From a virus, in the IMG/VR virus record IMGVR_UViG_3300027763_000039, positions 44,317 through 108,316 of that record: a DNA stretch of 64,000 nucleotides; one strand, 5' to 3'. Positions within the stretch are counted from its first letter, which is position 1; each line of letters starts with the position of its first letter. The notes below the pieces were generated by a model, which saw nothing but the letters and a program-made list of their open reading frames with translations, ran no database searches and had not been told where the DNA came from. The translations under genes were made by a program, and so were the position numbers. Positions 17,101-35,642 of this stretch are shown here, piece by piece.

Positions 17101-18515
17101 GCTCCAGTTTGATTATTCAGTATGCCTACAATTAAATTATTATTACTAATGGGTGGGACAGCATTAATGCTACCCAATACTAAATTGTTAGAGACAGTAC
17201 CACTTAAATTATTAGTATTGCCAACAACTAAAGAACCATTGATATCCTTAAGAGTATTAGACTGACCAATAAGTAATAGTTTGGATGGGGCTCCACTAGC
17301 AAAATTATTATTGATACCTAAAAGAATACTTTGATCCAGACCAGAGCTTGTAGAATTACCTAATCCAATAACAATAGACTTGCTTGTATCTTGTAAATTA
17401 ATATTATTGCCAACAAAAATACCACTAGAAATATTAGTTATATTTTGATCAGAACCAATACAGATAAGTTTGGTGCCGGTAATTACATCTGAACTGCCAT
17501 ATACTTTATTAGAGTTACCACTTAAACTAACTTTAGAACCAACTACGCTATTATCATTACCAAATATAGTATTAATATTACCAATATAAATATTGTTGTC
17601 GCCAGTATTACTTACATAAGAACCCAAAACAACACCAGATGCTCCAGAACCAACTCCAACTTGAACTAATCCAACATTTGTAGAAACATTAAGATTGTTA
17701 TTCCTTCCTAAAAGAATATTATAGTTACCAGTAATACTACTAGAATTACCAACAAAAATATTAGATAACCCAGTTAAACTAACTGAGTCACCCAGAGCAG
17801 TATTATTTGAACCAATTAATCTAGAGTTATTTACTAGAGCAAAAACTTTGGCTCCATTAAAATAGTTTGAACTACCAACAACTATGCCAGTATTAGATAT
17901 TCCTGTGTTACTTGAGCCGACAGTTGTTAATCCAACACCAGTTACAGAATTGCCAACACCTAAGACTGTGTATGTATAACCAGAAACGCTGTTGCCACCA
18001 CCCAGCACAACATTTCTTAAATTAGCACTAAATACTGGTTTATTTGTTCCTTTATCGTCAACAGTGAATAGTATTTCGCCACTAGTAGATCCCGTAATAG
18101 GATCTAAAATTTTGGACATTATTTGTCCGTAAACAATTTCGTTATAATTAGTGTCTCGTCCAGCCAAATTAATAGTAGCTGGATAGCTGCCAGATAATGG
18201 AGCAGTTTGGGGGTTGTGTACTAATAGGAGGGTGACACCTGTGGGGCAATTTGTAATACTCTCAACAATTAAGCCATCTTTAGCACATGGGGCGACCACA
18301 TGCAAAACAGCATCTGGTAATCCTGTACCAATTCCTAGTCTGCCAGTTGAGGCATCAAAATGTACTAGTCCATTACCGGTACCACGAATGCTAAAATCAA
18401 TATCTTGTTTGAGAGCATTAAAAGAGGTGCTAATACCAGAAGTTTCTGATAAGATAATTGATGGATTAACGCCAGAACCAACATAGAGTGTGCCGGATAC
18501 TGTTTGATTGCTCAT
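14187..18515 (-). CDS. Tail fibre with YadA-head-like beta-roll repeats, 1,442 aa
   Basis: The gene starts 12 bases after the tape measure stop, with AAGGGG as SD. Near residues 57-72 is a fibre motif of the GIGT...LHV type (LGIGTGLPDAVLHV). From about residue 165 to 650, and again around 730-790, the protein is a long run of short N-N/S-G turns (for example VVGSSNYFNGAK, NIYIGNINTIFGNDN, IIIGTSNNLHGINNI), the pattern of left-handed beta-roll heads in trimeric adhesins such as YadA. Further fibre-type strands follow. The C-terminal ~250 residues are non-repetitive and may be the receptor-binding tip. No S74 chaperone motif, signal peptide or membrane anchor is present, so this is a virion fibre and not a bacterial autotransporter. 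Confidence 0.85.
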   Translation of the reverse strand: MSNQTVSGTLYVGSGVNPSIILSETSGISTSFNALKQDIDFSIRGTGNGLVHFDASTGRLGIGTGLPDAVLHVVAPCAKDGLIVESITNCPTGVTLLLVHNPQTAPLSGSYPATINLAGRDTNYNEIVYGQIMSKILDPITGSTSGEILFTVDDKGTNKPVFSANLRNVVLGGGNSVSGYTYTVLGVGNSVTGVGLTTVGSSNTGISNTGIVVGSSNYFNGAKVFALVNNSRLIGSNNTALGDSVSLTGLSNIFVGNSSSITGNYNILLGRNNNLNVSTNVGLVQVGVGSGASGVVLGSYVSNTGDNNIYIGNINTIFGNDNSVVGSKVSLSGNSNKVYGSSDVITGTKLICIGSDQNITNISSGIFVGNNINLQDTSKSIVIGLGNSTSSGLDQSILLGINNNFASGAPSKLLLIGQSNTLKDINGSLVVGNTNNLSGTVSNNLVLGSINAVPPISNNNLIVGILNNQTGAYISSDGAISGNPARTAGTVNNSIVAGINNLVLSGNSNVILGNKNVASGSNISSVGSYNNLKNTSNAYAIGNSNFLVGDQLGAVGSKILAVGQESIVFNTTNNKMDVFGSGNIVLGYNQAVSSGIIIGTSNNLHGINNIVYGRNNTLGSTRDKCTLDSAGLNITIPTRGLLSQYIAGDKILFYVQSSPSVSNTFIRDIVNVTENTIDETTTISIGSPMSVDTTNGYYSINTAFDDNNSPNTSVISGLVMPYQRMGGAGGTETNPIYGSNNIVIGTNNRYLYSSGVVVGYNNNVSGVRNVVLGYGISGVADNTLYMGTNNSNKMLLDNDKVVFNSGAIQDNFIIKSSNDNTSVLNVSLNNNRVGINTNSPTSELSVSGTTTTSGIRVGFSAPDAYVLTTNTNGVGTWQLPVRISGTDNGLLYRVSDKVASGISEILYSPSTKQMNFNLGGDNGFYIASTGVFVNDEASTYRFRIRGSGGVEFAKVLLDTNFGNQRIDFYNVSGNSGTFNNLTISSGINLSPSLTGTFLYVNNSGRLNSTTTRPNSVIFANEGSLATGNASIKWINSQQILALGATGVFTNDVLVNNPDSFYNIVLSSNDNYDTVFNNRGLGNKFSVINSGSWSNRNGFHISPTGSVMINASSNNISNANSSGVVLYANGTAWFNSLKLGVGATVSGYYLKTDQYGNLSFSDIDLKTQFSGIYPANITYTSQGNSSYRVDIGLTNKFVDGTNMTDGSMLVYRGDAWVGSSGLRVYQNTTANDPGTIAGIEFGYKAQVTRTTHNHVFAGGSLKVSEEKYNGSSQFAQYYLRTRTTDGGQVRPLVNDWTKPQTGSTVSTTETSTNCINLDAFSGSQNYEYDRVWAYQIDVSVMWQSGTTIAQNTYGTRYGAGIFIEGALIRTVSGLRFSKLGTESVRTYGDSMPAGMSLSTQIVASNPSRLSIVASGSTGYTAIWSATARINQLNHYGADPLYLN

Positions 18516-18527
18516 TATAATTACCCC

Positions 18528-21500
18528 TTATACTTGGAGTACTCCTTCTGTTTTCATTGCTAGTTTGTTCATGGCTCCGTTAACTTGATCTAGGATCATT
18601 CTCTGAATAGGTTCTTGCATATTAGCAAATACTGATGCTCCATTAATAACAACTTCTACTCTGTGTGTACCTTGTAGATTAACTTGTTCTGGTATTTTAA
18701 TCTGTTCAAGTTGACCAATAAATCTATTGAAAGTGCTGGTAAACTGGCTTAATCCGTCTAATTGACCTCTGCTATTATTATTTACACCACCACCGACTGG
18801 AGTTGCCCCCATGCTTTGAATCATGTTTTCTAAAGCCATACCAAATTGGGTTAATACTTGATTACTTCCAGTTAATAAAGTTCCAAATATCGCTAATTGT
18901 TTATCAACATCTCCAGCATGTTGAGGATCAAAAGCTGCTTGAGCAGCCATATTTACTCTTTGGCTCATTTGGGGATTCATCTGTTGATTACCCTGAGTAA
19001 ACATTGCCTGATTTTGTTGTTGGTTCTGTTGGTTTGTCTGATTCCCTTGAGGAGGAGCTTGTTGAATCTGTCTTGGTATTCCTCTATATTTATATTCTTC
19101 AGCTTTATTTATTTGTGCTTCTTTTACTCTCTCGCCCAATGCTTTTCTTTCAGCTTCTATACTATCTCTAGTCTGTTTTCTCTCTGCTTCTATTGCTGCT
19201 AGTCTTAGTTGATCTAATTGTCTTCTTTCATCTCTGTCTTGTGTATATTTTCGTTTTTTAGGAGTTTCTCCACCTGACTCTAAGTATACTACTCCACCAC
19301 TAGAAAATCCTTGGGCTCCACTATTAATACTCTTTAACAGAGGTAGATTTTGCTGAGTGGCCTGACGATTAACAACAAACTCTCCTGGGGTCAACATTGC
19401 TGGTACAGTGTCTGTGCCTCTTGGCTGATAAGGAATCAACATTCCATTATTAGCATAAACCACCCCACCTCTAGCCTTAGCTAATACATCAATATTACTA
19501 GGAGCTAAATTGTCTGAACCAATATATTTAATAGCTGATCCAGGTGGCATAGTTTCAAAAAATCCTTCTCTAAATTTTTGAAGCATCTCTGGATTTCTTT
19601 TTCCTATAAACTTCATAATTTGGGATAGAACTTCACCATCTCTTGTTACTGCATCTGTACTATCATATATTGCTCGTCTGCTTGGTAGTCTAGTCTGCTG
19701 TTGCATTAGCCAACTATCTGCAAGACCTCCCCCTCCACTATTTGGACTAGCAAATGTTTGTGTTTGAATACCTCTTAAGGTTTTACCAGATGGATCTTGT
19801 AATTCTAGTTTCTTTAATAACGGGGAATATTTCATATCAGATAATACTGATTGTACTTGGTCAAAATTATCATGTAACCAACGAGCCACATAAGATTTAT
19901 TTAGCTCATAATCAAGATCAAATCTTGATGGGTCTAATGTTTCATCAAATTTAACAATCATGGGTTTACCACGAGTATCTGCTCCTGTAAGTGTTCCTTG
20001 CATAATAGATCTGGCGTGTTTTTCAGCTGCTTCCCTACTAGTGTAGGTGTACAAGCCTTGACCTTGTCCGTACCCCTTTGCAATACTACTTTTACCACCT
20101 TCTTTTTGAAAACTTTTTAAAATAGAGTCTTCTAAGCCAGTATTACTAGCATGAAAAAGAGGTACAGTTTTAGAAGCTTTGGGCACATCTAATGGCGCAC
20201 TAGATTTAGTAATAGGAGTTTTTGCTCCTCTGATACTTTGTCTTGAACCAGCGTTGGTTGTTGTAGCACCTCCAGCCACAGCTGCTTCAGCAATATCAGT
20301 AAACATATTCCAAGCTGCACCAGCTCTTTCTAAAAAAGAAGCTCCTAATAATCCTGGTCCTGCTGGTGGACCATAAGCACTAATTTCTCCTGTTGGAGTA
20401 TGCCACTGTCTCCCACTATTATCTGTAGTTATTTTTGCTCGTTGTGTTTGTAATTTTGCCTGTTGATTAGCAAAGTCTAATTCTCCTTGGGTTGGAGTCA
20501 TTTCTGGCATATAGTTCTGATTTTGTTGACCTAGTCTTGGATCCATTAATCGTGATCCTGGAACCAACACACCATTTTGAGCATAAACTATGCCACCCTG
20601 AGATTTAAATTGACCAAATGCTTTTGCTTTAGAGGATGGTATTGGTGTGACAGGTGTTGGGCTTACGGGCTTAACTAAATCGCCATAGCCTTGTTGCTCA
20701 ATTTCATATGAGGTTGTTGGTCTTCTAATATAGTCTTCACCAACACCAGACTCAACTCTAGTAGTATCTGTTATAAGACTTGGTTTCTTAGTATAACCAT
20801 TTTCTCCAGCACTAATATCAGGATGTTTTTCTAATTTTTTCCATAATTTTTTAGCATCTGGAGTTTGACTATCGTCAGGTATTACAGAACCACCTATTTT
20901 AGTGATATACTCTATAATAGCATGATATAAACTTTCTCCATATCCTTTTTTGGCTAATGATGTTTCTATTTTAAATGTTTTTTGATTATCTATCGGTTTT
21001 GCAGAAACTCTTCCCCATCCTTGGTTAGCGGATCCAGTTTTTGGATCTTCATAAAAAGCAATTATCTCTCTTGCATCTTCTCCAAATACTTCTGAATTAA
21101 ACTTGTCTGCATTTGTATTATCGTATGGACTTAGAATGCGAATTTTATTACTTGCTGGAGCTCCAGGAACATCTGGAGTTTGTGGTTTATTTTGTTGAGC
21201 AAGGAGAGACTGTTGGAGCTTGATCATAACTTTTTGTTTAGCATCTTCTAATACTCCACGAGCTGTTTCTATTAAGAATCCACCTCTAGATTGTGCTAGT
21301 TTTGGATCAGTATCTGCTTGAGTTAAATTAAAATTAGTATGTCTAGACAAAAATTCAGCAGCAGCAGACTCGCTTTCAGGTTGATAGAAATTACCAGTTC
21401 CTTCGACTTTAGCACCATATGTGCCTCCAACTTTTTGTTCAGCAGTACCAATTAAACCTCTATCTTTGTATCGGGAGGCATTCATTTCATCTACTGGTCC

Positions 21501-24500
21501 AAGATTAACACGTTCAAATTTACCCATTTCTGAACGAAAATTACTTAATAGTACTTCTTTTAATGCTGTTTGTATATTTTCTCTACCAATAGTATCTCTA
21601 ACCCCCATACGACCAACAGGCTGTTGCGCAACACCAGGGGCTTTTGCTCCTATTCCGGTAATGCCAATCTCTTGATCTCCAAACAATAAATTAGTACGAT
21701 TAAATGTTTTTGGTAATTCACCAGATGTTCCAGTTAGTTGATATAATGTTTCAACTAAACTATCAAAAACTGGTTGAGGATATTGAATAAGTCTCTGTAT
21801 CGAATCAATATCAAAATCTTTTGTTTCAATAAATTTAGAAAAAGTTGGTTTAGCTTGAGGTTTTATAAAAGAGCTTGCACCTGTTATTTTATTAGTATCA
21901 ACTGTTCTGTTGGAAGCAAAGTCATATTCTGATGAATTCTTAGCCGAAGTATATGCTGCATCTAATGTTTGTTGATGACTTCGTACTCTGTAGCTAGCAA
22001 TTTCATCTGCTCTTTCTTCTAAGCTTCTATAGACAGGTAAACCCTGCTGGTTTCTTGATTTAGTATCTGGTCTAAGAGTACCCTCTTTTTCTTGTTTTTG
22101 ATATTCTGCAAGTTGTTCTTTGGCCCATTGAGTTTTTAGTTTCTCTAATCTTTTGAATTCAATATCTCTAGCATCTTTTAGAGATTTTTGATATTCTGCC
22201 AATGTTCGACTTTGAGACATAGTTTTACTTGGATCAAATACTTGCGCCGTAGCTTGTGTGTCAGTTGAGGTAAGACCAGTTCCTTTTACTCCTCCAGCTT
22301 TTGGATTAGCAGCGCCGCGAGTGCCCAAATCTTCAAAACCCAAAGGAGCTCTTTCTGGTCGTGGGGCTGGTAATACTACTGGTTGTTTAAGCAGAGGGGT
22401 TTTTGCTCTTGGTACTCTTGTTTGTGGTGATGGTTTAGGTCCTGCTCCGGGTAAACCAAAAAGAAAACTTCCTACAATATCACTAAACATATTCATTCTC
22501 TCATGGAATGGAGCACCCAATGGCCCTGGTCCTGGTGGTGGTCCATAAGCACTTATAACACCTTCTGGAGCATTCCAATCAAATCCTTCAGCATCTCTAT
22601 TTGCTACATGAGCTTGTTGTTGTCTACGTGCCCAATCTAATTCTCCTTGAGTTGGAGTCATTTCCGGCATATCACTCTGATTTTGTTGGCCCAATCTTGG
22701 ATCCATTATTCTTGGAACTAGCGTACCTTCATGAGCATAAATTATCCCACCCTTAGAATATGTGGTAGCATTCGCATCTTCTGGATCAAAATCTTTAATC
22801 ATCTTTTCAAGTCTATCACCCTTGACTCCCGGATAATTTTCTTTCATCCAAGTTCTAAAATTAACTGCTGGTGAACCACCAACAGCATCGGAATAATTAC
22901 CATATTCATTCCAATACTGCCGGGAATTTCTCAACTGAGAGGATTCCTCAGGGTTACCCCAATTTTTTAAAATACTTGCTATTCTGGCTTCCTGTCTTGC
23001 TTTCTCTATTTGTTCTGGTGTTAGTTTAGCTTTATTACTCTGTTTGTCTTTTCTTTTGATACCTGCCACTTGTTTTCTTCTTAACTTCTCATTTTCATAG
23101 TCTGCTTTTCTTTGTGCTCTTATATCTTCTAAACTAGGTTTATTTATTTGTCTACCATCTTGAGCATAAACAACTCCACCATTAGAATAAAGTTCAGCCA
23201 TTCTCATGGCCATCATAGTTTCATATTTATCCTTAAACATAGTATAAAAATCTAAATCTTCTGTTGCAAATCCAGAATCTTCTGATCTATTTAATGAATT
23301 ACGATTAGCTAAGAAATAGTGATATGCCTGTTCAACAGTTTTATATGGCACTGGTTTATTTGCAGACACTAGTGCTTGTTGATGTCTTTTCATTATTTGT
23401 CTAACCGCTCCAAGCCTAGCATCAATTTCAAATGGCCTAGTTAAATATTCTGCTCTAGACATGCTTATAGGATTGTTTGGATACTTTGCATTATAAACTT
23501 GAACAGCCCAATCTAGATCTTCGTTTGTCATAAAAGTTTCAGATCGTTGCGATTCATCAGTACTTCCAAAAGCAGCATGTCTCATCTCGTGCATTAATAG
23601 TCCGTATGAGCCCTTTTTAGGATCAACATGAATTACTTCTTGTCCTTCTTTTCCCATTAAAGATCCACTAAATCTGGTGTCAAAAGGAGGCTGATAGTGA
23701 GTGCGTATTTTAGTATCTAATTTATGTCTTTCAACATAAGGAAAAGCTCTTCGATATTGTAAATGATCTAATTTCCCTAATGGTTGACTTTTAAGTTCTT
23801 CATCGTTGCTTATGGCAGCATTATATCCTTCTGCAACTGCTTTGTCTAATTCTGCTTTTGATCCGTAAGCTGGTGTTCTAGGACTAAATTTTGCTGGTAG
23901 TCCTTTGCCAAGAGCAACGTCTTCAAAAGATAAGTCTTGGGAAGGTATATGCTTGCCTTTTTCAGCATAAATTACACCTCCTTTGTCTTTATTAATAGCT
24001 TGTAATAATGGTAAATTTTGACTAGTTGCCTTAGCATTAACAACAAACTCACCAGGAGTTAGCATTGCTGGTACAGTATCCGTGCCTTTGGGCTGATAAT
24101 TTATTAATTTACCAGCTGATGCATATACTATACCACCCTTACTAAATTGAGCACCTGCGCCACCCGGATTAACCGGAAGATTACCTGCACCGGGAGGAGC
24201 ACCGGGAAGAGGAGGACCATTTTGAGCACCAGCAGGAGGAGCAGGGGGTATCATAGGTGGAGCAGCTGCTAGAAGCAGCAATCTATCTAATTTAGCATCC
24301 ATTCTGTTAGATAATGCAAAATGAGCAGTGGATAGTTCATAATGGGTTGAGTCTCTATCCATCATGTATCCTAGACTATCAGAAGTCTGTGATAAATTTG
24401 TTTTATTCTGTTTCTTCAAATCATCAGTGTTTTTGAGTAATCTTTGCTCGGTAACATCTACCTTATCAAATCTAGTTAAATTATTTCTATTGATAGTATC

Positions 24501-27500
24501 GGTATTATTAACTAGTTTGGGTAGTTGTTGATCTTTGGTATTTTTAGTAGTATCAGAAATCTTTGTTGATAGTCCTAGATTATTTTTAGCATTATTAGCA
24601 ATTTCTTGTTGTAGTCTTGAGTTTAATTCTTTATCACGAATTTGTGATGACTGTTGTGTAGAGTCTAATGTTTTAGTTTCTCCCCCAACTGATCTATAAA
24701 TTACTCCACCCTTGCTCTTATTAATAGCTTGTAATAAAGGAAGATGTTGACTGGTGGCTTTAGCATTAACAACAAATTCGCCCGGAGTTAACATTGCGGG
24801 AACGGTATCAGTTCCTCGTGGTTGATAATCTACTAATGTTCCATCTGCCGCATAAATCATTCCACCATTACTACTTCCTTGAGCTACTCTGAACGCAGGA
24901 TTACCAGCAGCAACTCTAGGATATAGTAATCCAACAGTATTGTTAATATTGAAAGCTGATAATCTAGCAGCATTAGCAGCATCAGTATCTTCTGGATTAA
25001 TATAACCCATTTTCGTTAATTGTTTGCTAATATTATTCTTTAGCATGGCCTGTTGACCAGGATTCATGCCTTGACCTCTTGCTGCCATTCTATCAATGCT
25101 ACTAAAGTTTCTTAATAACTTAGCAAAAGTTTTTCCTTGAGCTTTCTCTAGTCTTTTTCTCTCAGCCATAGTAGCCACATCCGCACCATAATCACCAGAC
25201 TTATTATAGATACGAAATGCTACTTGCTCAATTTGATCTTGACTCATTCTTAATATGGCAATATCTCTATCACTATATTTATAGTTACCACCAACCGTTT
25301 GCTGACTCATTGTTTGAATAAGTGCTTCAGCTTGTTCTGGTGTGAATGGACGGAAAAGATCTTTAGCAGCATCTGCTGATAAGCCGTACTTTGTTAAGAG
25401 TTTTTCGTCTAGTCTGGGACTTCCACTTAGATTAAACTTTCCTCTAAGTTTAGATAAGGCTTGTTCTCTCCAGCCCATAAAAGCTTCTGGACTACGGAAT
25501 TTATCTGGAGCACCCATACCAACAGCTTTACCTACCGCTAATTCCAAGTTAAATCGTCTAGAATTAGCTCTATTAGATGCTAAAATTTGTGCTCTATTAG
25601 CTTCTCTTTCTTGTTTTTTCTCATAGTTTTTCCATAGTCTATCTTGTTCAGCTAGTGGGATATCAACAAAAGCTTTATTATTTAATGATACAATTTGTCT
25701 ATTTTTATCTTCAAGTTGTTGTAATAGCTTTTCTTTATCTCTCTTCTGTTCCTTGCTCATATCCTTAGGGTCTTTATACTTATATCTATCTATTTCTGCT
25801 TCTATTTCTTGTTTTTCTTTATTTAATTTATCTGTCTGTTTATAAACATCAACTGTGTCTCCATCAAAAGCGACCTTTGCAGCCCCTGGTGGTAATGCTG
25901 GACGATCAACCCATCGATCAGCCTGACTTTCATTTGCTGCTCGTCTTCTGTTAATATTTTCCTGATTATTTCTATTAATAGTTTGAAAACCTGATACAGC
26001 AGCATTTGCAACTGATGATACATAAGGAACTGCTGTCTGTACTGCTCTATTAGCTGTAGCTCTAACTTGTGTTGCTCTAGTTTGTCTTCTTTCTTCTTGT
26101 CTTTGTCTTTCAACCTTTTTAGCTTTTTCTGCTCTTTTTTGCTCTGCGGCTAGTTCTGATTTTCTTTCTTGCTCATCTAAATATTGTACATGAGCTTCTG
26201 TGGCGGCATCTAGGCGAGCACTACTAGCTCCTGTTCCTCTATTTTTATCTTGTTTAGTGTCCCAAAATATGCCAGGAACAGTATCCATTGTATTAAAAGA
26301 ATCATCAATAAGTCTTATTTGTTCATCATAAAAATTTTGGTTTGAACTAGTGCCCTGAGAATTTCCTCGGGCTGCTTGATCTTTTTTCTTTAATCTTAAT
26401 AGTTCTGCTTTTCTTTCTACAGCGCTTCTTTGAAATGCATTTAAGTCAAAACCACCAAGATGATCATTGGGTCTTCTGGGTCTTCTGCTAGCTTGTAAGT
26501 TTCTATTTGTTCTTATTTCACTGGTAGTTGCATCATTAGCATCTGCTAAATAACCAGCTGTTTCTTGAATATTCATAGCTAATGCAGCTGTAATTGGAGC
26601 GAATTGTGCTGGGACACCCATAGTAGCGTGTTCAACTGAAGTTAATCCTAATTGACTGAAATTACCCAATTGTCTATCTAACATAGTTCCTTGTTCAACA
26701 CCCGTAGCCCATCCTATCATAGAATGAGCTCCAACATCACCCATGGTCTCTCCCGTGCCTGTTAACATTCCTAGTCCAGTATTAACTAATCTATTTCTAT
26801 TTGTGAGTCTAGGATCAGCCATTGCTCCACTAACAGCGCCAAAAATTGATCCAAAAAATCGACCAGCAATAGGAGCGGCAGCTCTGGCAATACCTGGAGC
26901 TTGACTAGCTCCATAACTCAAAGCTGCTCCGGGATTTCTAATAACAGATCTAGCTCCTTGATAAGCACTGCCTAACATATTTCCAGTTCTATTTAGTAAT
27001 GAAGCTGGTGGTTTTGGTTTTACCGGTTGTATTCCTAACCATCTTTCTAAACCATTTGGATTTACATTTCTGGGTCTTCTTATCTCTGGGATATCGTTAT
27101 CACCTAAGTCTAGTCCTGCTAATTTGACTTCAGTTATTTGTTGTATGTAGGGTTTAAAAATTGGATCATTAATACCTAATCTAGAAGCTCGCACAGCTGC
27201 ATTCCATTCTCTCCTTACCCTAGCTCCAGTCATAGCTGGATCACCCTGTCTAGCTAATAAAAATTTAAATAAAGGATCACGAGGACTAAGATTACTAGGT
27301 ACTCTATATCTATTTCCTCTTGCTATGATATTTAATGCATCACCAGCATCATCACTGCCAGATATCATATTAGCAACTAGCGGATCTATTACATTTGCTA
27401 TCTGCACAGGGTTGGTTGATCCACCAGCTAAATAAACCACCCCACCCTTAGCATATTTACCAGAATTAATACTCTTTAAAAGAGGCAAATTATTTTGTGT

Positions 27501-30500
27501 AGCTGATCTATTAACTACAAATTCACCAGGAGTTAACATGGCAGGAACAGTGTCAGTTCCTCTTGGCTCATAATTAACTAAAGTTCCACTAGCAGCATAA
27601 ACTGGACCACCTTGTGCTCTAGTCATAACATTGCCCGGTCTGGCTAATCCTAATCCTTCATTACGACCTTGAGCATTATTAAAAGCATTGGTCAAATTAG
27701 TTAAAGCTGTTATTAAAGCTGTATTAGCAGTATTGAGTATTTGAGCTTGTTTTTCTAATAGTGGGTTAATAGCCTTTTGAGTAGCTTCGCCCAAAGCTGC
27801 CTGTTGTTGTTTATATAGATTCTCTAGTGCTTTAATTTGTGGATCTTCTTTTGGGGCAGCTCTCAGGTTGGCAACAATTTCTCTTAAGAAAGGATTATTT
27901 TGAACATTAAGACCTTGGTTTCTGGCTGTGTTCTCAATCAAATCAGCTCTTAGATTTCCGGCTCTTTGAGGATCAGTATTATCTAATCCAGAAACAGTAA
28001 TAAGCTCATTAAATAAACCAAAAGTATTCTTGGCATCACTAGCAAAAGCTTCTTGAGCAGCACCGACCGCATCCATGTGGGTGCCGCCATCCTCAATAAC
28101 TTTTTGGTAAGCTTGTTGAGCAGAGATGGACTGGTTGATGGTGGTGATTTGACCGTTTAATGTTCTATTAAGAAGATCATAGGTGGAATTGAGATTTTTT
28201 AATTCTGTGGGGGTGCTTGTTACTAATTTTTCTCCAAAAGAAGCTCCGGCCTGAGTTTTACTTTCTTTCTCTGATCTTAGCTGACTAATTTTACTAAGAG
28301 TGTCTTGCATATCTTGTTTGATAAGATCTGGTAGGGTTTCTAAACCTTTTTCAGTAGCGGCGATTTGTCTATTTAGATTAGCAAGAGCTTCTTTTTGCTT
28401 GTTGATAAGAGATATAACAGCAGGATCTGCTGCATTACCTGAATTTTCTAGTTTACTAATATTACCTTGAACAGCAGCCTGCTGACCCATCAACATTGTT
28501 CTTTGGTTGGTCAAATTAGCTGCTGTTAAAGAGCCGGGTTTAATACCAGCGTTTATTGCTGCTTCAGTATATCTGCCTGATGCTCTTTCTTTAAGAGAAA
28601 TTCTTCGTCCTTCTCCTAGAGCTTCTTTGAGTGATACAGTACTGTCTGAGAGATATCCTTGTAAACTAGCAAATTTACCAATAGCTTGAGTTTGAAGTTC
28701 AGCTGCTTTTTGTACAGCTTCTCCATATTGATTTAATCCTTTTTCTATAAATTCATACTGACCCAACATTGTATTGAAGGATTTTTTCTGAGAGTCAATT
28801 AATTGTTTTAGTCCACCAGTGCTCTCTATTAAGGACTGAGGATCTAATACTCCGTCATTCTGTTTGATATTATCTTTAACAGCGCCTTTTAATTGTTCAC
28901 GAATAGCATCAGAGATTCTATTATCTCCAAAAGTATCTATAAGTTGTTGAGTTAATTCTCTGGTAATATCATCTCCTAAAGTTTCACTACTACCATTACC
29001 GCTCTGTTGTGCTTTAACAGCAATTTTTGTAATAGTATCTTCAGCAGAAGACCCGAACTTGGATAATCCTTCAACAAATTTCTTATCTGTACCAAACATT
29101 CCACTAACTTGACTAATTGCTGTTTGACGTTCTTTTTGTGAATAAGCATTAGGATTCTTTAATACGTCTTTAGACTTAAATTCTGTTTTTAGCGAAGCTT
29201 GACCACTTGCTATCTCATCAATTCTTTGACTGGCTTTGTCTAATCCCATAGTGGCTGCTGCAATAGCCTGATCCATGTTTTCAAAGGTTTTAGATATACT
29301 AACTGATGCAAGATTTAAAGTTCTTGCAGATTGTTGTAGAGCTTGCACCCTGGATCTTTCTGCTACAGTAGCTTGTAGTGTTGCTGTTTCTTCTTTAAAG
29401 TAAACATCTATTAACTCTTTTTGTCTCTTTTCAACATCTGCTATAATTTGTGGATCTTGTCCTGGAGTTTTCTTAATATTCTCTAATTTTTTATTTTCCA
29501 GATTAAACTTTTCATTAGTTTGAGCAATATTTAATTTTGCTAAGTCTTTATCTCCACCAAAAGAGGATAAGGCTTCCTGAATATTTGATCCACCCTCAAC
29601 CTTAGCTGTAATTGTCTTAAGAGCTATCTCTCCAGCAACTTTTTGGTTAGCAGTTTCTTCTTCAGCAATTTGCTTATCTGTTGGTTTCGCAGCTTTATAC
29701 ATACCGAAAGAAGCAGCTTCTAAACCACGAGTTAAATAACTGGGCTGTCGTAATTCTGCTTGTTTTGCTGATATTTTTTCTTCTTCAGCAGCAATGCTTT
29801 TAAAATTTTGAATAATTGATGATGTAATAGCGGCATCTTTTGGATTTTTATTAAGTTTTTCTAATTGAGCTTCCGCATTTGTAGCACTACCTTCTATTTT
29901 CTTTTTACTAACATCTATATCAGCTTCTGCCACTGCTTTGCCAAAGCTATCTACAGCTAATACCGCACCAGCTACTGCTCCAGCAAGTGCTCCCCAAGGA
30001 CCAAATTGTGCCCCAACAGATACGGCCCCACCAAATGCTGTGCCAGCAGCAGCAACTCCTCTACCATTGCTTCCACCAACCATTGAGCCTACCGCTTCTG
30101 CTGCCATAGGAGCAGCAAATGCTAGAGCTAAACCACCATTCATATATCTAGCTCTTCTATCTCTTTTAGCTTCATATTGTGCTCTTTGAGAGTCAGACAT
30201 GTTACCAATTTCTTCATCTGATGGTCCCATTATTCGACTTCTAATTGAACCCAATCCTCTAGATGCTCCTTGAAACGCTTTGGAAAGTGTAGGAAAGCTT
30301 TGTGCTAATCTGCTCTGAGATTGAGTATTTGTTTGAACAGCTTTATACAAACCTCCCCACGCATCTGCCACCTTTCTTTCTGCGGCGGCCTTGGCCATAG
30401 AAACACTAACGCTACTATCTGTTGCTCTAATTTGTCTAGTAAGAGATGCTACTTGTTTACGTTGAGCATCTGCTACGGCCTTGGCGGCATTTTGATCTCC

Positions 30501-33500
30501 TAAATCAGCTGCTTGTCTAGTACCAAGACTCACTCCTCCGACTACTTGATCTTCTGCTGACCTATAAGCTGTATCGAAATCGACAGAAGGATTGGCTGTT
30601 GCTATCTGATTTACAATTTTAGCTAATAGATCATCTACTGCTTTTTCAGCCTGTGCTGATACCGCATCAAAACTCGCTACTGCTTCATATGTTGTGCCAC
30701 CCCCAGCAAATCGTTGTATTCCACGAACAGCACCACCAGAACGATAGCCTAAAGCTTTAGTTGCAGCTTCACGAAGAATAAAGCTACCTACTGGTAAGTT
30801 TATCGGCCCTATACTATCACTAGTTCCTGTACCCGAACCTTTAAAAACACTAATTCCCCCAGAAGAAAATGAACTCATTCCATTACGATCTGCTTGATTC
30901 ATTCGGTTGAGTTTACCATATCCTATTGCCTTGGCTGTTTCTGGTGGAACATAAGCCTCACCATTAGAAACCATAGCTTGAACATGTCCACCCGATGCAT
31001 AACCTCTAGCTTTAAGATAATTACCAATTTGGTCTTTTAGTTCTGCTGGGCCATTAAGGGTAAGTTTAGCATCTGTTGGAATATTTTGAGGAAGATTAAA
31101 ATATTTAGCAGCATCCTGAAGACCATCTGGGAAGTCGATACCATAATTGGTGGCGGCTTTATTTGCTATTGGACCACCAAGCTGATGAATAATACTTTCA
31201 GCCATATATCCCTGAGCATTGGCCTCGCCCATCTTTTTACGATCAGAAGATTTAACTTTTTTATTCTTATATAGATAGGTGTTAATACCTGCTGCTTTTG
31301 CTGCATTAATATTTCTCTCATCATCATCAATAAATGAACCAGACTTGTCCATCTCTTTAAGTTTAAGTTCGGCAATTTGTTCAGCAGTACGATCTGGACC
31401 ACCAACACCTTTAATTCTATCTATTGGTATTGGGAGTCCATTTTTAGCTAACCATGTAGCAATCAAACCCATAGTTGCTTGTGGCCTAGCTGAAATCACA
31501 TGTAAATTATCAAGTAGTTCTGGAGTTTTCTTAACTTGACTAACAAGAGCTTTACCTAATTTGCTAAGTGTAGCTTTTGCTAGAGCCCTCTCTACTTTTG
31601 TCTTATCAGAAAATTCACTAAATCTTGGTTTTCTAGGATCAGATAGAATTTTATCAGCACCAAAAGCTAATGTCCTATCAAAATCAGAATATATGGGACC
31701 AACTTGTTTTAAAATATCTCTAATCATTACATTCTTGGTTAAGTTTTGACTTTCACCACTCATCGCTTGAGCCATCCTCTTGATGTCTCTTCCAGCAGCG
31801 TTTTTATCTAGGACACCACTAGTAATTCTAACTTTAACTGGATTATTTAGTCCTGGAATATCCATTCTGGGAGTTGTAGCAAAAGCTTTGCCCTTGAATC
31901 CAGCAGCACCAAACAATAGACCCTCTGTAGTTGCTTTTTGTATATCCAGATCATTTGCTGCTTTAATTCCAGAAGTTTTCTTTGTATAAGCTGCTAAGAT
32001 TTGATCTTTGATGCTTTTTTCCTGTGGACTTAATGCATTTTTTTTCTTTAATATTTTGAGTATATCACCAGCATTTGCTCCACTAGCTTGCATTGCTCCT
32101 TGTAGAGTAAGAACTTTTAATATTTCGCTAGAAGTAGCTGTTGTTCCTGCTGTTGGAGTTACCAAACCAGCATTAGCAAACTTACGAATAAAACCTCCGG
32201 AAGCTCTATTATTTTTCCCTTGATTTTTTGCGTATAAATCTCTAATTTCATTCATTACCAAATCTTTATTAGGCATCTCATAAACATTAATATTACCGAT
32301 GTCCTTAGACTCTGGAGAAGAAAGAGTAAATGGCCTAGTTAAATTTCTAACCACTCTTGCTCTTAATAACTTATCTAAATAATCTGTTTTAGACACCATA
32401 CCAGAAGGACGAAATTTTACTTCTCCTACTGATTTTCCATCTGCACTAATAAGATCTACGGGATAACTATTTCTACGAGGAATATTTTCAATTTCTCCAG
32501 TTGGTATATATTGTTTTCCTACTCGTTCTTTTATAGTTCTAGAAAGTAATCTCTCATATGCTTCAGACCATTTGGGGCTCTCATCTGCTGTTCCAAGCTG
32601 ACTAATTCTTCGTGCTCCTTCTTTACCAGCTAAAAAGTCTTTTGGTGATTTATCACTTCCTCTTCTTCCTAAAAGATTAGAGTAGCTTTGCATTTGTGTT
32701 GGAGTAGCTTTATTTTTTCCTAATGAAAATCTCTGATTTGTTGGAGAAATAGGTAGACCTTTTCTCATGTCATTATAAATTTCTCTTGCAATACTCTTAA
32801 CGTTCAATCCTAACATCCACGGCTCTATCTGTTTAATAAATCCTGAAGCACTATCTTCATTAACGTTCATATACCTAGCTATTTTAGGATTTTGAGAAAT
32901 TAATGAAACAGCTTGAGGTAGTTTTTGGATAGATACTGGTCCTACTTTTCCTCCTCCAGCATGTCTATTAATACGATGAAGATTTCCTACTCCAATACTA
33001 CGAACAGCACTTTTTCTAAGAACAAACTCTCCCGGCGTTAACATGGCCGGAACAGTATCTCCATCTCCAGAACCTGGAACATGACCACCAGCAGCAAAAG
33101 CTCTGATTTGTCCACCCTGATTATTTCTGGTGGGTCTAATACCACCAATAAATCCTCTACCGAACTGACCAAGAGCAGACAAACCTCTCATTGCAAATAT
33201 AGCACCAAGAGCTGGTAATGCTCCCTTGGCAGCATCTGTTAATCGAATTAAATTACTAGTTAAATCTAAAGATAATTTAACGAAAGACTGAAATCCAGAA
33301 CTTTGTCCAATGGATCTTACTAAGCCTACAAACTCATTTCTTACTTTTGCCATTTGAACAGCTAAAGATTGTTGTGCGGTGGCAGCATCAATTGCTAAAG
33401 AGTCTTGTCCACTTTGTGCAACCTTTAATGCTGCTTGAGCAGTTGCGAACTGTTGAATTAATGGAATCACCTTACCAATCTGACGAAAACCACCAAGTTC

Positions 33501-34679
33501 TTCTACAATTCTGGAGAACTTTAAATCTCGGGGATCTAATTGAGATAGTCCTTCACTTAATCTTCTAACAGCTTCGTATGGTCCAACGAATTTACCTTGA
33601 AGGTCTGTTAGTGTTACACCATATTCTTTAAGGGCATCGATTGTGTCTCCTCTTTGAATTCTGGTAAAAATTGTTCTTAAACCAGTAGCAATAGTTTCAG
33701 CACTTTCACGAGTTGTAGCTCGAACGCTAGTAAACACAGCCATAAATTCATTTAGAGCTTGAGTACCTTCACTAACACCCTTACTAGCTGTAGCAAACAC
33801 ACCACCGGTACGCTGAATAGCAGTAATAATATCACCGGCTTCAACAGCAAACTTAGCAGCTACCGCATTAACTGAACCCAATGCACTATCTAATTCACCA
33901 GCACTAATACCAAACTGTCTCATTAATGCGATACTACCTTCTACGGTACTATTCAAGTTATCGAATGATGGAGCTAATGCACTAAGAGCTAAAGCTTTTA
34001 ATGCCTTCTCTGTATCTCTAGCACTTAAACCAGCCTGAGCTAATGTGCTAGATACTTTAATTAATTCGTTAGATGACACACCAAACTTGGTTGATAATTC
34101 AGTAATTTCGCCAACCAATCCACCAAGATTCTTTACGGAAGTATCAGTAACCTGAGATACTCTGACTAATTCTTGATTAAAAGCAATAAAGTCGGTTGTT
34201 GCAGATGTCAGGGCGTTGGATACTTTATAGATGACAGCTGTTACTGTGCTAATAGCAGCAAATCTACGAGCAGCCAATGCTGATTGGCGACCAAATTCCA
34301 TAAAAGCTGAAGTTGTATTATGAACCGCAGCAGAAGCCGCAGCGTTTTGTTGAACAACATTTCTTGTAGCAGCATTAATCTGTTGTAAGTTTGCCGGTAG
34401 ATTAGCAGCACTATTATTAACTTGTTGTATAGCTGTTCCAAGATTTCTCAAAGATAAAGCTGTAGCATTTGCTGAGGCATTGGTGGCCTGTAAGGTATTA
34501 GTAAAATTTCTAAAAGTTTGATTAAGAGTAGTAATATTACGAGTTACATTAGGATCAACACGAACATTAACATCAGCATTAATAGTTCCTAGTTGTCGCC
34601 TAATATCAGCAACAACAGTCCTAATGTTAGATGGTCCTCGTAAATTTAACTCTGCTGTAAGATTAAAACCTCTAGCCAT
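18528..34679 (-). CDS. Giant modular tape measure protein, 5,383 aa
   Basis: The start is the ATG after GAGG, 6-7 bases away; the stop TAA is just before the next gene's SD. Residues 1-150 are Asn/Ala/Gln-rich helix, and ~150-480 match the phage minor tail/tape measure domain (PhageMin_Tail type: ATTDFIAFNQELVRVSQVTD, ATRESAETIATGLRTIFTRI). Two Ala/Gly hydrophobic stretches (~1513-1585, 2581-2622) could form membrane helices. Residues ~1600-2300 are helical/coiled coil. Five copies of DTVPAMLTPGEFV (~541, 2376, 3291, 3534, 5090) join modules that resemble PD-(D/E)xK (~640-810), HAD (~985-1165), HExxH zincin (~3595-3830), GNAT (~4515-4620) and ART (~4835-5070) domains. The gene follows tail tube and chaperone-like genes. 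Fully extended at ~0.15 nm per residue it would span about 0.8 micrometre. The tape measure identity is firm; the embedded enzymes are provisional. Confidence 0.95.
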   Translation of the reverse strand: MARGFNLTAELNLRGPSNIRTVVADIRRQLGTINADVNVRVDPNVTRNITTLNQTFRNFTNTLQATNASANATALSLRNLGTAIQQVNNSAANLPANLQQINAATRNVVQQNAAASAAVHNTTSAFMEFGRQSALAARRFAAISTVTAVIYKVSNALTSATTDFIAFNQELVRVSQVTDTSVKNLGGLVGEITELSTKFGVSSNELIKVSSTLAQAGLSARDTEKALKALALSALAPSFDNLNSTVEGSIALMRQFGISAGELDSALGSVNAVAAKFAVEAGDIITAIQRTGGVFATASKGVSEGTQALNEFMAVFTSVRATTRESAETIATGLRTIFTRIQRGDTIDALKEYGVTLTDLQGKFVGPYEAVRRLSEGLSQLDPRDLKFSRIVEELGGFRQIGKVIPLIQQFATAQAALKVAQSGQDSLAIDAATAQQSLAVQMAKVRNEFVGLVRSIGQSSGFQSFVKLSLDLTSNLIRLTDAAKGALPALGAIFAMRGLSALGQFGRGFIGGIRPTRNNQGGQIRAFAAGGHVPGSGDGDTVPAMLTPGEFVLRKSAVRSIGVGNLHRINRHAGGGKVGPVSIQKLPQAVSLISQNPKIARYMNVNEDSASGFIKQIEPWMLGLNVKSIAREIYNDMRKGLPISPTNQRFSLGKNKATPTQMQSYSNLLGRRGSDKSPKDFLAGKEGARRISQLGTADESPKWSEAYERLLSRTIKERVGKQYIPTGEIENIPRRNSYPVDLISADGKSVGEVKFRPSGMVSKTDYLDKLLRARVVRNLTRPFTLSSPESKDIGNINVYEMPNKDLVMNEIRDLYAKNQGKNNRASGGFIRKFANAGLVTPTAGTTATSSEILKVLTLQGAMQASGANAGDILKILKKKNALSPQEKSIKDQILAAYTKKTSGIKAANDLDIQKATTEGLLFGAAGFKGKAFATTPRMDIPGLNNPVKVRITSGVLDKNAAGRDIKRMAQAMSGESQNLTKNVMIRDILKQVGPIYSDFDRTLAFGADKILSDPRKPRFSEFSDKTKVERALAKATLSKLGKALVSQVKKTPELLDNLHVISARPQATMGLIATWLAKNGLPIPIDRIKGVGGPDRTAEQIAELKLKEMDKSGSFIDDDERNINAAKAAGINTYLYKNKKVKSSDRKKMGEANAQGYMAESIIHQLGGPIANKAATNYGIDFPDGLQDAAKYFNLPQNIPTDAKLTLNGPAELKDQIGNYLKARGYASGGHVQAMVSNGEAYVPPETAKAIGYGKLNRMNQADRNGMSSFSSGGISVFKGSGTGTSDSIGPINLPVGSFILREAATKALGYRSGGAVRGIQRFAGGGTTYEAVASFDAVSAQAEKAVDDLLAKIVNQIATANPSVDFDTAYRSAEDQVVGGVSLGTRQAADLGDQNAAKAVADAQRKQVASLTRQIRATDSSVSVSMAKAAAERKVADAWGGLYKAVQTNTQSQSRLAQSFPTLSKAFQGASRGLGSIRSRIMGPSDEEIGNMSDSQRAQYEAKRDRRARYMNGGLALAFAAPMAAEAVGSMVGGSNGRGVAAAGTAFGGAVSVGAQFGPWGALAGAVAGAVLAVDSFGKAVAEADIDVSKKKIEGSATNAEAQLEKLNKNPKDAAITSSIIQNFKSIAAEEEKISAKQAELRQPSYLTRGLEAASFGMYKAAKPTDKQIAEEETANQKVAGEIALKTITAKVEGGSNIQEALSSFGGDKDLAKLNIAQTNEKFNLENKKLENIKKTPGQDPQIIADVEKRQKELIDVYFKEETATLQATVAERSRVQALQQSARTLNLASVSISKTFENMDQAIAAATMGLDKASQRIDEIASGQASLKTEFKSKDVLKNPNAYSQKERQTAISQVSGMFGTDKKFVEGLSKFGSSAEDTITKIAVKAQQSGNGSSETLGDDITRELTQQLIDTFGDNRISDAIREQLKGAVKDNIKQNDGVLDPQSLIESTGGLKQLIDSQKKSFNTMLGQYEFIEKGLNQYGEAVQKAAELQTQAIGKFASLQGYLSDSTVSLKEALGEGRRISLKERASGRYTEAAINAGIKPGSLTAANLTNQRTMLMGQQAAVQGNISKLENSGNAADPAVISLINKQKEALANLNRQIAATEKGLETLPDLIKQDMQDTLSKISQLRSEKESKTQAGASFGEKLVTSTPTELKNLNSTYDLLNRTLNGQITTINQSISAQQAYQKVIEDGGTHMDAVGAAQEAFASDAKNTFGLFNELITVSGLDNTDPQRAGNLRADLIENTARNQGLNVQNNPFLREIVANLRAAPKEDPQIKALENLYKQQQAALGEATQKAINPLLEKQAQILNTANTALITALTNLTNAFNNAQGRNEGLGLARPGNVMTRAQGGPVYAASGTLVNYEPRGTDTVPAMLTPGEFVVNRSATQNNLPLLKSINSGKYAKGGVVYLAGGSTNPVQIANVIDPLVANMISGSDDAGDALNIIARGNRYRVPSNLSPRDPLFKFLLARQGDPAMTGARVRREWNAAVRASRLGINDPIFKPYIQQITEVKLAGLDLGDNDIPEIRRPRNVNPNGLERWLGIQPVKPKPPASLLNRTGNMLGSAYQGARSVIRNPGAALSYGASQAPGIARAAAPIAGRFFGSIFGAVSGAMADPRLTNRNRLVNTGLGMLTGTGETMGDVGAHSMIGWATGVEQGTMLDRQLGNFSQLGLTSVEHATMGVPAQFAPITAALAMNIQETAGYLADANDATTSEIRTNRNLQASRRPRRPNDHLGGFDLNAFQRSAVERKAELLRLKKKDQAARGNSQGTSSNQNFYDEQIRLIDDSFNTMDTVPGIFWDTKQDKNRGTGASSARLDAATEAHVQYLDEQERKSELAAEQKRAEKAKKVERQRQEERRQTRATQVRATANRAVQTAVPYVSSVANAAVSGFQTINRNNQENINRRRAANESQADRWVDRPALPPGAAKVAFDGDTVDVYKQTDKLNKEKQEIEAEIDRYKYKDPKDMSKEQKRDKEKLLQQLEDKNRQIVSLNNKAFVDIPLAEQDRLWKNYEKKQEREANRAQILASNRANSRRFNLELAVGKAVGMGAPDKFRSPEAFMGWREQALSKLRGKFNLSGSPRLDEKLLTKYGLSADAAKDLFRPFTPEQAEALIQTMSQQTVGGNYKYSDRDIAILRMSQDQIEQVAFRIYNKSGDYGADVATMAERKRLEKAQGKTFAKLLRNFSSIDRMAARGQGMNPGQQAMLKNNISKQLTKMGYINPEDTDAANAARLSAFNINNTVGLLYPRVAAGNPAFRVAQGSSNGGMIYAADGTLVDYQPRGTDTVPAMLTPGEFVVNAKATSQHLPLLQAINKSKGGVIYRSVGGETKTLDSTQQSSQIRDKELNSRLQQEIANNAKNNLGLSTKISDTTKNTKDQQLPKLVNNTDTINRNNLTRFDKVDVTEQRLLKNTDDLKKQNKTNLSQTSDSLGYMMDRDSTHYELSTAHFALSNRMDAKLDRLLLLAAAPPMIPPAPPAGAQNGPPLPGAPPGAGNLPVNPGGAGAQFSKGGIVYASAGKLINYQPKGTDTVPAMLTPGEFVVNAKATSQNLPLLQAINKDKGGVIYAEKGKHIPSQDLSFEDVALGKGLPAKFSPRTPAYGSKAELDKAVAEGYNAAISNDEELKSQPLGKLDHLQYRRAFPYVERHKLDTKIRTHYQPPFDTRFSGSLMGKEGQEVIHVDPKKGSYGLLMHEMRHAAFGSTDESQRSETFMTNEDLDWAVQVYNAKYPNNPISMSRAEYLTRPFEIDARLGAVRQIMKRHQQALVSANKPVPYKTVEQAYHYFLANRNSLNRSEDSGFATEDLDFYTMFKDKYETMMAMRMAELYSNGGVVYAQDGRQINKPSLEDIRAQRKADYENEKLRRKQVAGIKRKDKQSNKAKLTPEQIEKARQEARIASILKNWGNPEESSQLRNSRQYWNEYGNYSDAVGGSPAVNFRTWMKENYPGVKGDRLEKMIKDFDPEDANATTYSKGGIIYAHEGTLVPRIMDPRLGQQNQSDMPEMTPTQGELDWARRQQQAHVANRDAEGFDWNAPEGVISAYGPPPGPGPLGAPFHERMNMFSDIVGSFLFGLPGAGPKPSPQTRVPRAKTPLLKQPVVLPAPRPERAPLGFEDLGTRGAANPKAGGVKGTGLTSTDTQATAQVFDPSKTMSQSRTLAEYQKSLKDARDIEFKRLEKLKTQWAKEQLAEYQKQEKEGTLRPDTKSRNQQGLPVYRSLEERADEIASYRVRSHQQTLDAAYTSAKNSSEYDFASNRTVDTNKITGASSFIKPQAKPTFSKFIETKDFDIDSIQRLIQYPQPVFDSLVETLYQLTGTSGELPKTFNRTNLLFGDQEIGITGIGAKAPGVAQQPVGRMGVRDTIGRENIQTALKEVLLSNFRSEMGKFERVNLGPVDEMNASRYKDRGLIGTAEQKVGGTYGAKVEGTGNFYQPESESAAAEFLSRHTNFNLTQADTDPKLAQSRGGFLIETARGVLEDAKQKVMIKLQQSLLAQQNKPQTPDVPGAPASNKIRILSPYDNTNADKFNSEVFGEDAREIIAFYEDPKTGSANQGWGRVSAKPIDNQKTFKIETSLAKKGYGESLYHAIIEYITKIGGSVIPDDSQTPDAKKLWKKLEKHPDISAGENGYTKKPSLITDTTRVESGVGEDYIRRPTTSYEIEQQGYGDLVKPVSPTPVTPIPSSKAKAFGQFKSQGGIVYAQNGVLVPGSRLMDPRLGQQNQNYMPEMTPTQGELDFANQQAKLQTQRAKITTDNSGRQWHTPTGEISAYGPPAGPGLLGASFLERAGAAWNMFTDIAEAAVAGGATTTNAGSRQSIRGAKTPITKSSAPLDVPKASKTVPLFHASNTGLEDSILKSFQKEGGKSSIAKGYGQGQGLYTYTSREAAEKHARSIMQGTLTGADTRGKPMIVKFDETLDPSRFDLDYELNKSYVARWLHDNFDQVQSVLSDMKYSPLLKKLELQDPSGKTLRGIQTQTFASPNSGGGGLADSWLMQQQTRLPSRRAIYDSTDAVTRDGEVLSQIMKFIGKRNPEMLQKFREGFFETMPPGSAIKYIGSDNLAPSNIDVLAKARGGVVYANNGMLIPYQPRGTDTVPAMLTPGEFVVNRQATQQNLPLLKSINSGAQGFSSGGVVYLESGGETPKKRKYTQDRDERRQLDQLRLAAIEAERKQTRDSIEAERKALGERVKEAQINKAEEYKYRGIPRQIQQAPPQGNQTNQQNQQQNQAMFTQGNQQMNPQMSQRVNMAAQAAFDPQHAGDVDKQLAIFGTLLTGSNQVLTQFGMALENMIQSMGATPVGGGVNNNSRGQLDGLSQFTSTFNRFIGQLEQIKIPEQVNLQGTHRVEVVINGASVFANMQEPIQRMILDQVNGAMNKLAMKTEGVLQV
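19374..19412 (-). repeat. Tape measure DTVPAMLTPGEFV repeat, copy 5 (most C-terminal)
   Basis: Thirteen residues identical to the other four copies, inside a GG-x-V-Y...YQPRG linker. It differs from the other copies only at synonymous bases. Confidence 0.9.
19465..20175 (-). other. ADP-ribosyltransferase-like domain inside the tape measure
   Basis: Residues ~4835-5070. LFHASNTGLEDSIL resembles the first ART motif (aromatic-His-Gly/Ala-Ser/Thr), and GYGQGQGLYTYTSREAAEKHA resembles the second (G-x-G-hydrophobic-Tyr, then Ser/Thr and an A-x-x-[YH]-A helix). A clear third catalytic Glu is not assigned; acidic residues follow in KFDETLDPSRFDLD. The domain is bounded by a GG-rich linker on its C-terminal side. 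The motif reading is by eye. Confidence 0.45.
20476..20548 (-). repeat. Intragenic 73-bp duplication in the tape measure gene, copy B
   Basis: Encodes MDPRLGQQNQ then MPEMTPTQGELD. It matches copy A (22636-22708) with about eight base differences by eye, and both copies are followed by related ISAYGPP segments. Confidence 0.85.
20810..21145 (-). other. GNAT acetyltransferase-like domain inside the tape measure
   Basis: Residues ~4515-4620. A beta-rich N-terminal half (EIIAFYEDP...GWGRVSAKP) is followed by AKKGYGESLYHAIIEYI, which fits GNAT motif A (Q/R/K-x-x-G-x-G, then a helix). The closing IPDDSQTPDAKKLWKKL resembles the C-terminal part of many small GNATs. The family is inferred from pattern only. 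Confidence 0.45.
22636..22708 (-). repeat. Intragenic 73-bp duplication in the tape measure gene, copy A
   Basis: Partner of 20476-20548. The two copies are far more alike at DNA level than the DTVPAMLTPGEFV copies, so this duplication is younger. Confidence 0.85.
23190..23900 (-). other. HExxH zinc-metallopeptidase-like domain inside the tape measure
   Basis: Residues ~3595-3830. LLMHEMRHAAF carries the HExxH zincin motif at about residue 3694, preceded by a beta strand (EVIHVDPKKG) as expected for an edge strand. A candidate third zinc ligand is the Glu in RPFEIDARLGA about 60 residues later. The domain lies between GG-V/I-Y linkers. The substrate is unknown. Confidence 0.55.
24042..24080 (-). 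repeat. Tape measure DTVPAMLTPGEFV repeat, copy 4
   Basis: Identical 13-residue core preceded by YQPKGT and followed by VNAKATSQNLPLLQAINK. It lies just before the zincin-like module. Confidence 0.9.
24771..24809 (-). repeat. Tape measure DTVPAMLTPGEFV repeat, copy 3
   Basis: Identical core preceded by YQPRGT and followed by VNAKATSQHLPLLQAINK. It shares its flanks with copy 4 at protein level. Confidence 0.9.
27516..27554 (-). repeat. Tape measure DTVPAMLTPGEFV repeat, copy 2
   Basis: Identical core, preceded by YEPRGT and followed by VNRSATQNNLPLLKSINS. It lies between the coiled-coil region and the second hydrophobic region. Confidence 0.9.
31180..31725 (-). other. HAD-like phosphatase domain inside the tape measure
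   Basis: Residues ~985-1165. YSDFDRTLAFG provides the DxDxT nucleophile motif, HVISARPQAT the second motif (hydrophobic strand ending Ser), and a Lys lies before SGSFIDDDERNINAA, the acidic Mg-binding motif, all in the correct order and spacing for a HAD hydrolase. This is the best supported of the embedded enzyme-like modules. Confidence 0.7.
32250..32760 (-). other. PD-(D/E)xK nuclease-like domain inside the tape measure
   Basis: Residues ~640-810. YPVDLISADGKSVGEVKF matches the D-(x)n-E-x-K core (Asp in VDLI, Glu and Lys in GEVKF) of restriction-endonuclease-fold nucleases, followed by a helix (KTDYLDKLLRARVV) and a strand (NINVYEMP). The motif is short, so this is tentative. Confidence 0.4.
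33021..33059 (-). repeat. Tape measure DTVPAMLTPGEFV repeat, copy 1 (most N-terminal)
   Basis: Identical core after GGHVPGSGDG and before LRKSAVRSIG. It lies at the end of the conventional minor-tail domain, and its flanks differ from copies 2-5. Confidence 0.9.
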
Positions 34680-35641: not shown

Positions 35642-35642
35642 A

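Follow-up and report, generated by a model that had tools for sequence, protein, structure and literature searches.

The tape measure protein of Thermus phage P23-45, the 5,002-amino-acid (aa) gp96, carries a functional RNA polymerase together with a metallopeptidase domain, and some of its relatives lack the polymerase (PMC10770324). Phages and conjugative elements also encode polyvalent proteins, which are likewise large and multidomain, with zincin, ADP-ribosyltransferase (ART) and GNAT domains, and have been proposed to enter the cell with DNA (Iyer et al. 2017, PMC5512222). Here we analyze a 64,000-nucleotide stretch (positions 44,317 to 108,316; hereafter the window) of the IMG/VR virus record IMGVR_UViG_3300027763_000039, which is part of a 108-kb virus contig and encodes a giant tape measure protein of 5,383 aa. 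The N terminus and core of this protein are near-constant in length among its relatives, while enzyme-like modules occupy two slots flanking the core rather than the apparent measuring part. We think it probable that this tape measure serves as a chassis for exchangeable enzyme cassettes, in which the N terminus and core build the tail and the slots carry effectors into the host.

The protein is encoded by a single uninterrupted open reading frame (ORF) on the minus strand at 18528..34679, in which residue n begins at window position 34679-3(n-1); all features of the protein given below lie on that strand. A second contig (G004) encodes a letter-for-letter identical 5,383-aa protein. A Pfam search matched PF10145 (PhageMin_Tail) at aa 192-384 with an expect value (E) of 7.8e-27, above the cutoff, and the N terminus also matches several PHROG tape measure families; ORF 18528-34679 is a genuine tape measure protein. 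The conserved N-terminal tape measure region, which includes PF10145, spans aa 1-520 (33120..34679) and is 50-100% identical in relatives.

When the N terminus was used by itself as the query, 31 loci were recovered, and at 27 of these the match covered most of its length; profile scans recovered 60 loci with the HAD module and 18 with a canonical ART module, all 78 of which fall in linker-bearing giant ORFs. The comparison set comprised 55 homologous IMG/VR tape measures of 2,578-7,786 aa. Some of them are truncated where a contig or the region read ends, and the longest uncut member has 7,574 aa. Among these, PD-(D/E)xK modules were matched in 19, GNAT in 10, HExxH motifs in 22 and HAD in 48, the last count being inflated by the many relatives that were found via HAD and by the inclusion of partial matches. 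Of the 20 nonredundant relatives whose discovery did not depend on the HAD or ART profiles, 8 have the HAD module in full, and one or more of HAD, PD-(D/E)xK, canonical ART and HExxH are present in 16. The window zincin and HAD modules had no match among 50,697 isolated-phage records, and bacterial genome contigs scanned with the N terminus and with HAD yielded no relative.

Using a hidden Markov model (HMM) built from the window protein's own copies, we detected six full linkers of two subtypes. Linker 1, directly after the N-terminal domain (aa 522-579; 32943..33116), is of type A (GDGDTVPAMLTPGEFVLRK), and a degenerate type A copy precedes the core as linker 2 (aa 1228-1276; 30852..30998). 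Type B (GTDTVPAMLTPGEFVVN..AT..NLPLL..IN) follows the core as linker 3 (aa 2357-2420; 27420..27611), which contains repeats D1 and D2, and recurs between the later modules as linkers 4 (aa 3272-3333; 24681..24866), 5 (aa 3515-3575; 23955..24137) and 6 (aa 5071-5137; 19269..19469). Three half-linkers (GG..YA..G, repeat D3) at aa ~3832, 3975 and 4695 subdivide slot B. DNA identity among linker copies is 61-84%. The first-pass annotation, made from the sequence alone, had marked 19374-33059, an interval of the ORF bounded by its last and first full linkers, and had described enzyme-like modules between copies of one linker type; the modules and the repeated linkers are borne out by PF10145, the linker HMM and the residues and folds of the modules, with the correction that there are two linker types plus half-linkers. 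Further repeats, D4 and D5 (MDPRLGQQNQ..MPEMTPTQGEL; ISAYGPP.GPG), lie at window 20335-20554 and 22507-22714 (minus strand), ahead of the UNK-GNAT and ART modules, and form a second kind of joint.

The same annotation had placed the modules inside the ruler, and here the comparison of lengths gives a different picture. For the 37 tape measures in which both core borders could be set, the core between linkers has a median length of 1,113 aa (range, 711-1,474; coefficient of variation, 0.14), and its length does not track that of the whole protein (correlation, 0.08). Slot A, at 362-2,479 aa, contributes 42% of total-length variance and slot B, at 593-3,433 aa, contributes 56%, so that both slots together account for ~98% and the core for ~1%. 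The length of the N terminus is also nearly invariant across the compared tape measures. In the window protein the core corresponds to aa 1277-2356 (27612..30851) and is presumably the ruler, with the two slots lying on either side of it.

Comparison of closely related genes indicates that slot contents are exchanged as blocks. Against one relative (G001), the DNA of the window gene is 91% identical over aa 1-578, up to the end of linker 1, becomes unalignable, and is again 88% identical over aa 1230-2426, restarting within linker 2; from aa 3418 to 5308 the two are dissimilar except for the linkers, and their slot contents differ. A second relative (G002) has a 93% identical N terminus and lacks the zincin-to-ART stretch. 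Apart from the linkers and a patch at the C-terminal end, DNA identity with a different tape measure (L061) is largely limited to two modules, UNK-GNAT (86.9%) and the ART-like module together with its linker (93.2%), whose order in L061 is reversed. Judged by these patterns of DNA identity, which between close relatives breaks at linkers, the modules shared with L061 and the differences from G001 and G002 are recent exchanges, and recombination at the linkers would explain the shuffling. A 2023 survey reported a mosaic signal in tape measures in which genuine recent cases could not be confirmed (PMC10684548); if our reading is correct, this clade would provide unambiguous examples of tape measures that became mosaic recently.

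The best-defined module of slot A is a HAD phosphatase-fold domain at aa 967-1140 (31260..31781). It has the DxDxT motif, the R of an [ST]AR-type motif II, the K and the motif IV DD of the HAD superfamily on a Rossmann-like fold. The corresponding residues are D999, D1001, T1003, R1065, K1106, D1118 and D1119, and all 37 nonredundant relatives have the same residue at each of these positions. The predicted model has block values of the predicted local distance difference test (pLDDT) of 88-98 across most of the domain core, and its top Foldseek matches are HAD enzymes, including the 3'-phosphatase of T4 polynucleotide kinase (template modeling score of 0.64 by target) and AphA. The HAD identity is thus confirmed by predicted fold and motif conservation, and pairwise ratios of nonsynonymous to synonymous substitution (dN/dS) for the module are 0.15-0.27. 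Five relatives (G003, G007, G020, G021 and G024) have a HAD-like module of variant type, in which DFDRTL or DVDRTV is combined with SIISK and the motif IV DD is missing.

Immediately after the HAD domain lies a second conserved domain (aa 1150-1226; 31002..31232; E1161, D1182, D1203 and K1205), with D1182, T1202 and K1205 invariant in 37 of 37 relatives and a helix-strand-helix-strand model, which we tentatively regard as a second PD-(D/E)xK-like domain. The PD-(D/E)xK nuclease-like module proper precedes HAD at aa 676-824 (32208..32654; E709, D742, E753 and K755). In all 8 aligned relatives E709, D742 and K755 are invariant and position 753 is E or D. Sequence searches of the PDB with the HAD, ART and PD profiles gave weak matches, that of the HAD profile being to a HAD hydrolase. 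The first-pass annotation had proposed that catalytic residues be checked in homologous tape measures, with loss of all of them counting against the enzymes; they are kept for both HAD and PD-(D/E)xK.

Slot B carries three further enzyme-like modules. A GNAT acetyltransferase-fold module at aa 4510-4640 (20760..21152) follows a module joined to it (UNK; aa 4088-4500; 21180..22418), the two together being the block shared with L061. Foldseek matches of the GNAT model are mostly GCN5-type acetyltransferases (best E of 0.014, probability up to 1.00), and most blocks of the domain have a pLDDT of 68-87; the fold is of the GCN5 type, and the GYG of GYGESLY (4579-4585), corresponding to the GxG acetyl-CoA loop, is conserved in relatives, so that the GNAT identity is supported by the predicted fold. 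A zincin-like metallopeptidase module at aa 3585-3831 (23187..23927) contains HEMRH at 3697-3701, with H3697, E3698 and H3701 as putative catalytic positions and E3751 as a candidate third ligand. The ART-like module, of the H-Y-E type, lies at aa 4838-5066 (19482..20168); its H4843, Y4877 and E5016 are kept in four diverged tape measure relatives, one of which matches DUF3990 weakly (E of 0.015), and its pairwise dN/dS is 0.13-0.38. Pfam and PHROG searches of window slices returned no significant enzyme match in any slot, indicating that these modules go unnoticed when a single sequence is annotated. If our reading is right, tape measures may conceal a pool of phage enzymes that escape annotation because of where they lie.

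The slots of sister tape measures hold additional cargo. PF03496 ADP-ribosyltransferases score above the Pfam curated cutoff (23.4 bits) in 4 of 5 sister modules, and STS and ExE are invariant in this canonical ART group. HExxH occurs at 29 sites in the 22 proteins that carry it, against 0.13 expected in shuffles, with none of the 29 in the N terminus or core; by this measure HExxH in these tape measures is not a product of chance. HExxH modules with dissimilar surroundings (HEAAHHYQ, HETGHLAD, HESFHDIQ and others) are present in G051, G066, G055, G059, G065, G067 and G048, which suggests that the clade holds several independent zincin-like types. Four slot segments of relatives match PF16581 (cytidyltransferase-related; best E of 3.5e-4), and PADLOC matched one segment to NsnB and one to a type II methyltransferase, so more cargo types may exist.

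These modules invite a reading in terms of delivery. The N terminus and core would measure and build the tail, the slots before and after the core would hold folded enzyme modules on repeated linkers, and similar linker DNA would let recombination swap those modules. A tape measure leaves the tail together with the genome. At infection it would thus exit ahead of or with the DNA, and the modules, perhaps passing the tube extended or partly unfolded and then refolding, would reach the cytoplasm or the inner membrane face. There ART and GNAT could modify host proteins using the NAD+ and acetyl-CoA available, HAD and PD-(D/E)xK could process nucleic-acid ends or remove phosphates, and the zincin could cleave proteins, possibly including the tape measure itself. 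NAD+ (for ART) and acetyl-CoA (for GNAT) are cytosolic substrates, which makes cytoplasmic action the simplest reading, and we infer that the modules are delivered into the host and act there as enzymes on host targets. Precedents exist for parts of this route: P23-45 has an active virion RNA polymerase as part of its tape measure, and the authors of that work propose that this enzyme acts at entry (PMC10770324), the lambda tape measure is labeled by an inner-membrane partner during entry (PMC13190303), and a membrane-bound defense nuclease contacts siphovirus tape measures during injection, as judged by crosslinking and labeling (PMC13190303).

Several points weigh against this reading, whose support comes from sequence comparison and predicted models. 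The lumen of a tail tube is roughly 4 nm, in which folded domains of 150-250 residues would be a tight fit and would have to be extended or held at the tip. The comparison of folds suggested in the first-pass annotation succeeded in part: HAD and GNAT folds were recovered, while Foldseek found no ART match for the ART-like model, whose alignment mixed GNAT and ART rows with some tails misaligned and may have cost the ART fold. The ART-like assignment thus comes from the conserved H-Y-E motif. Conserved motifs are likewise the basis for the zincin, together with one distant and weakly matching relative (G051) that shares HExRH and an ExDxRxGAxR stretch including E3751 (pair E of 2e-5). The PD-(D/E)xK model shows the expected helix-strand-strand-helix topology at low pLDDT and hence low confidence, and UNK-GNAT has a dN/dS of 0.53-0.68, denoting weak constraint.

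Among the alternatives, the one that survives best, though we judge it unlikely, is that the modules act at the cell envelope during penetration and never in the cytoplasm, like the muralytic and peptidase domains of some other tape measures. Envelope-acting and peptidase domains are known in tape measures, P23-45 gp96 having a metallopeptidase domain, and the N terminus is weakly matched by SPbeta-group tape measures annotated as transglycosylases. However, action confined to the envelope is at odds with GNAT and ART modules that need cytosolic acetyl-CoA and NAD+, and no peptidoglycan-degrading family was found, with Peptidase_M23 lacking a match anywhere in the record and Pfam finding none in the slots. 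A peptidoglycan-hydrolase role was rejected on those searches.

Slightly less likely again is a function in the producing cell, where the modules would serve assembly before they are packed into the tail, through tape measure or head maturation or in a chaperone-like way. The zincin could process the tape measure, and one ART member matches a PHROG labeled head maturation protease, but close relatives do without whole modules (the zincin-to-ART stretch in G002, and other slot contents in G001), and assembly can therefore not depend on any one of them. We consider it improbable that the modules are spacers that keep tail length variable and whose enzymatic ancestry is irrelevant: some modules have no recognizable fold and UNK-GNAT is weakly constrained, yet the HAD catalytic residues are kept in 37/37, all 8 aligned relatives retain the E, D and K of PD-(D/E)xK, and the canonical ART group shows no variation in ExE and STS. 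Repeated linkers can cause misassembly, but an assembly chimera or misassembled repeat array is largely ruled out, to the point of carrying almost no weight with us, by the identical 5,383-aa protein on a second contig and by 55 homologous giant ORFs, most with the same layout.

The remaining segments of the protein and its surroundings are as follows. Slot B opens with a segment at aa 2421-3271 (24867..27419), parts of which are common to G001, G002 and G005, and includes a small module between half-linkers at aa 3847-3974 (22758..23141), flanked by repeat D3, for which no relative was found. The C-terminal region (aa 5138-5383; 18531..19268) is conserved in close relatives. A tblastn search with the whole C terminus gave matches confined to linkers, in tape measures of Nodularia, Pseudanabaena and enhanced biological phosphorus removal (EBPR) phages, which as a clue to hosts amounts to no more than a hint. 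Two small ORFs (34760-35948) lie upstream of the tape measure, as does a 379-aa major-tail-like ORF (37188-38327), named by position and sequence reading; the ORF directly upstream, at window 34760-35641 (minus strand), has short repeats at its end (LVDKQGRLVDAEGRLIDENNRFID). The ORF that follows the tape measure in L061 and L062 has many NNN/GS-type repeats and in this resembles window 14187-18515, which has a weak antifreeze beta-roll match. Farther away, a 4,021-aa ORF at window 45397-57462 (minus strand) begins close to a collagen-like GPQGPPG stretch and is without a match in PHROGs.

Returning to the tape measure as a chassis for enzyme cassettes, we see about even chances that the design extends across the clade, with a measuring core kept apart from two linker-recombining slots, each tail delivering lineage-specific early enzymes and cargo being changeable without a change in tail length. 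If this is true, the tail would itself deliver, in modular fashion, enzymes that act ahead of all phage gene expression, and ruler and cargo would be separable within one protein, which would explain the tape measures of >7,500 aa in this clade. Rules of tail length could also be tested by comparing phages that are nearly identical except for widely differing tape measures.

Individual elements of this arrangement have counterparts in known systems. One ART from a sister slot matches the PHROG 'RNA polymerase ADP-ribosylase' (E of 5e-4), recalling the injected ADP-ribosyltransferases of the T4 Alt type, although Alt is a separate protein packaged in the head and the sister ART is a module within a tail protein. 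SPbeta YomI, a muralytic or transglycosylase tape measure, resembles the window protein in having an enzyme domain within a tape measure and in the weak N-terminal match, but proteins of the YomI type act on peptidoglycan and no such domain was found in the window protein. With polyvalent proteins it shares the combination of several enzyme domains, including zincin-like, ART-like and GNAT ones, in one polypeptide, the window zincin and ART being recognized by motif. The first-pass description of a protein built like polyvalent cargo therefore holds for the analogous domain types and not for families, as Pfam polyvalent-associated families were absent from the window slots and from 47 slot segments; tape measures, for their part, go unmentioned in the text of Iyer et al. 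2017 (PMC5512222). In the open-access literature searched, we found no multislot, multienzyme, linker-shuffled tape measure across dozens of relatives. The nearest likeness is P23-45 gp96, also a giant enzyme-carrying tape measure whose enzyme is thought to act on entry (PMC10770324), a precedent that qualifies the earlier suggestion of a distinct arrangement. The two are set apart by layout: gp96 has one polymerase in its N-terminal portion, whereas the window protein has at least five enzyme-like modules in two internal slots, where they are swapped and reordered. Enzyme-bearing tape measures are thus already known, and it is the many swappable enzymes in internal slots that look new.

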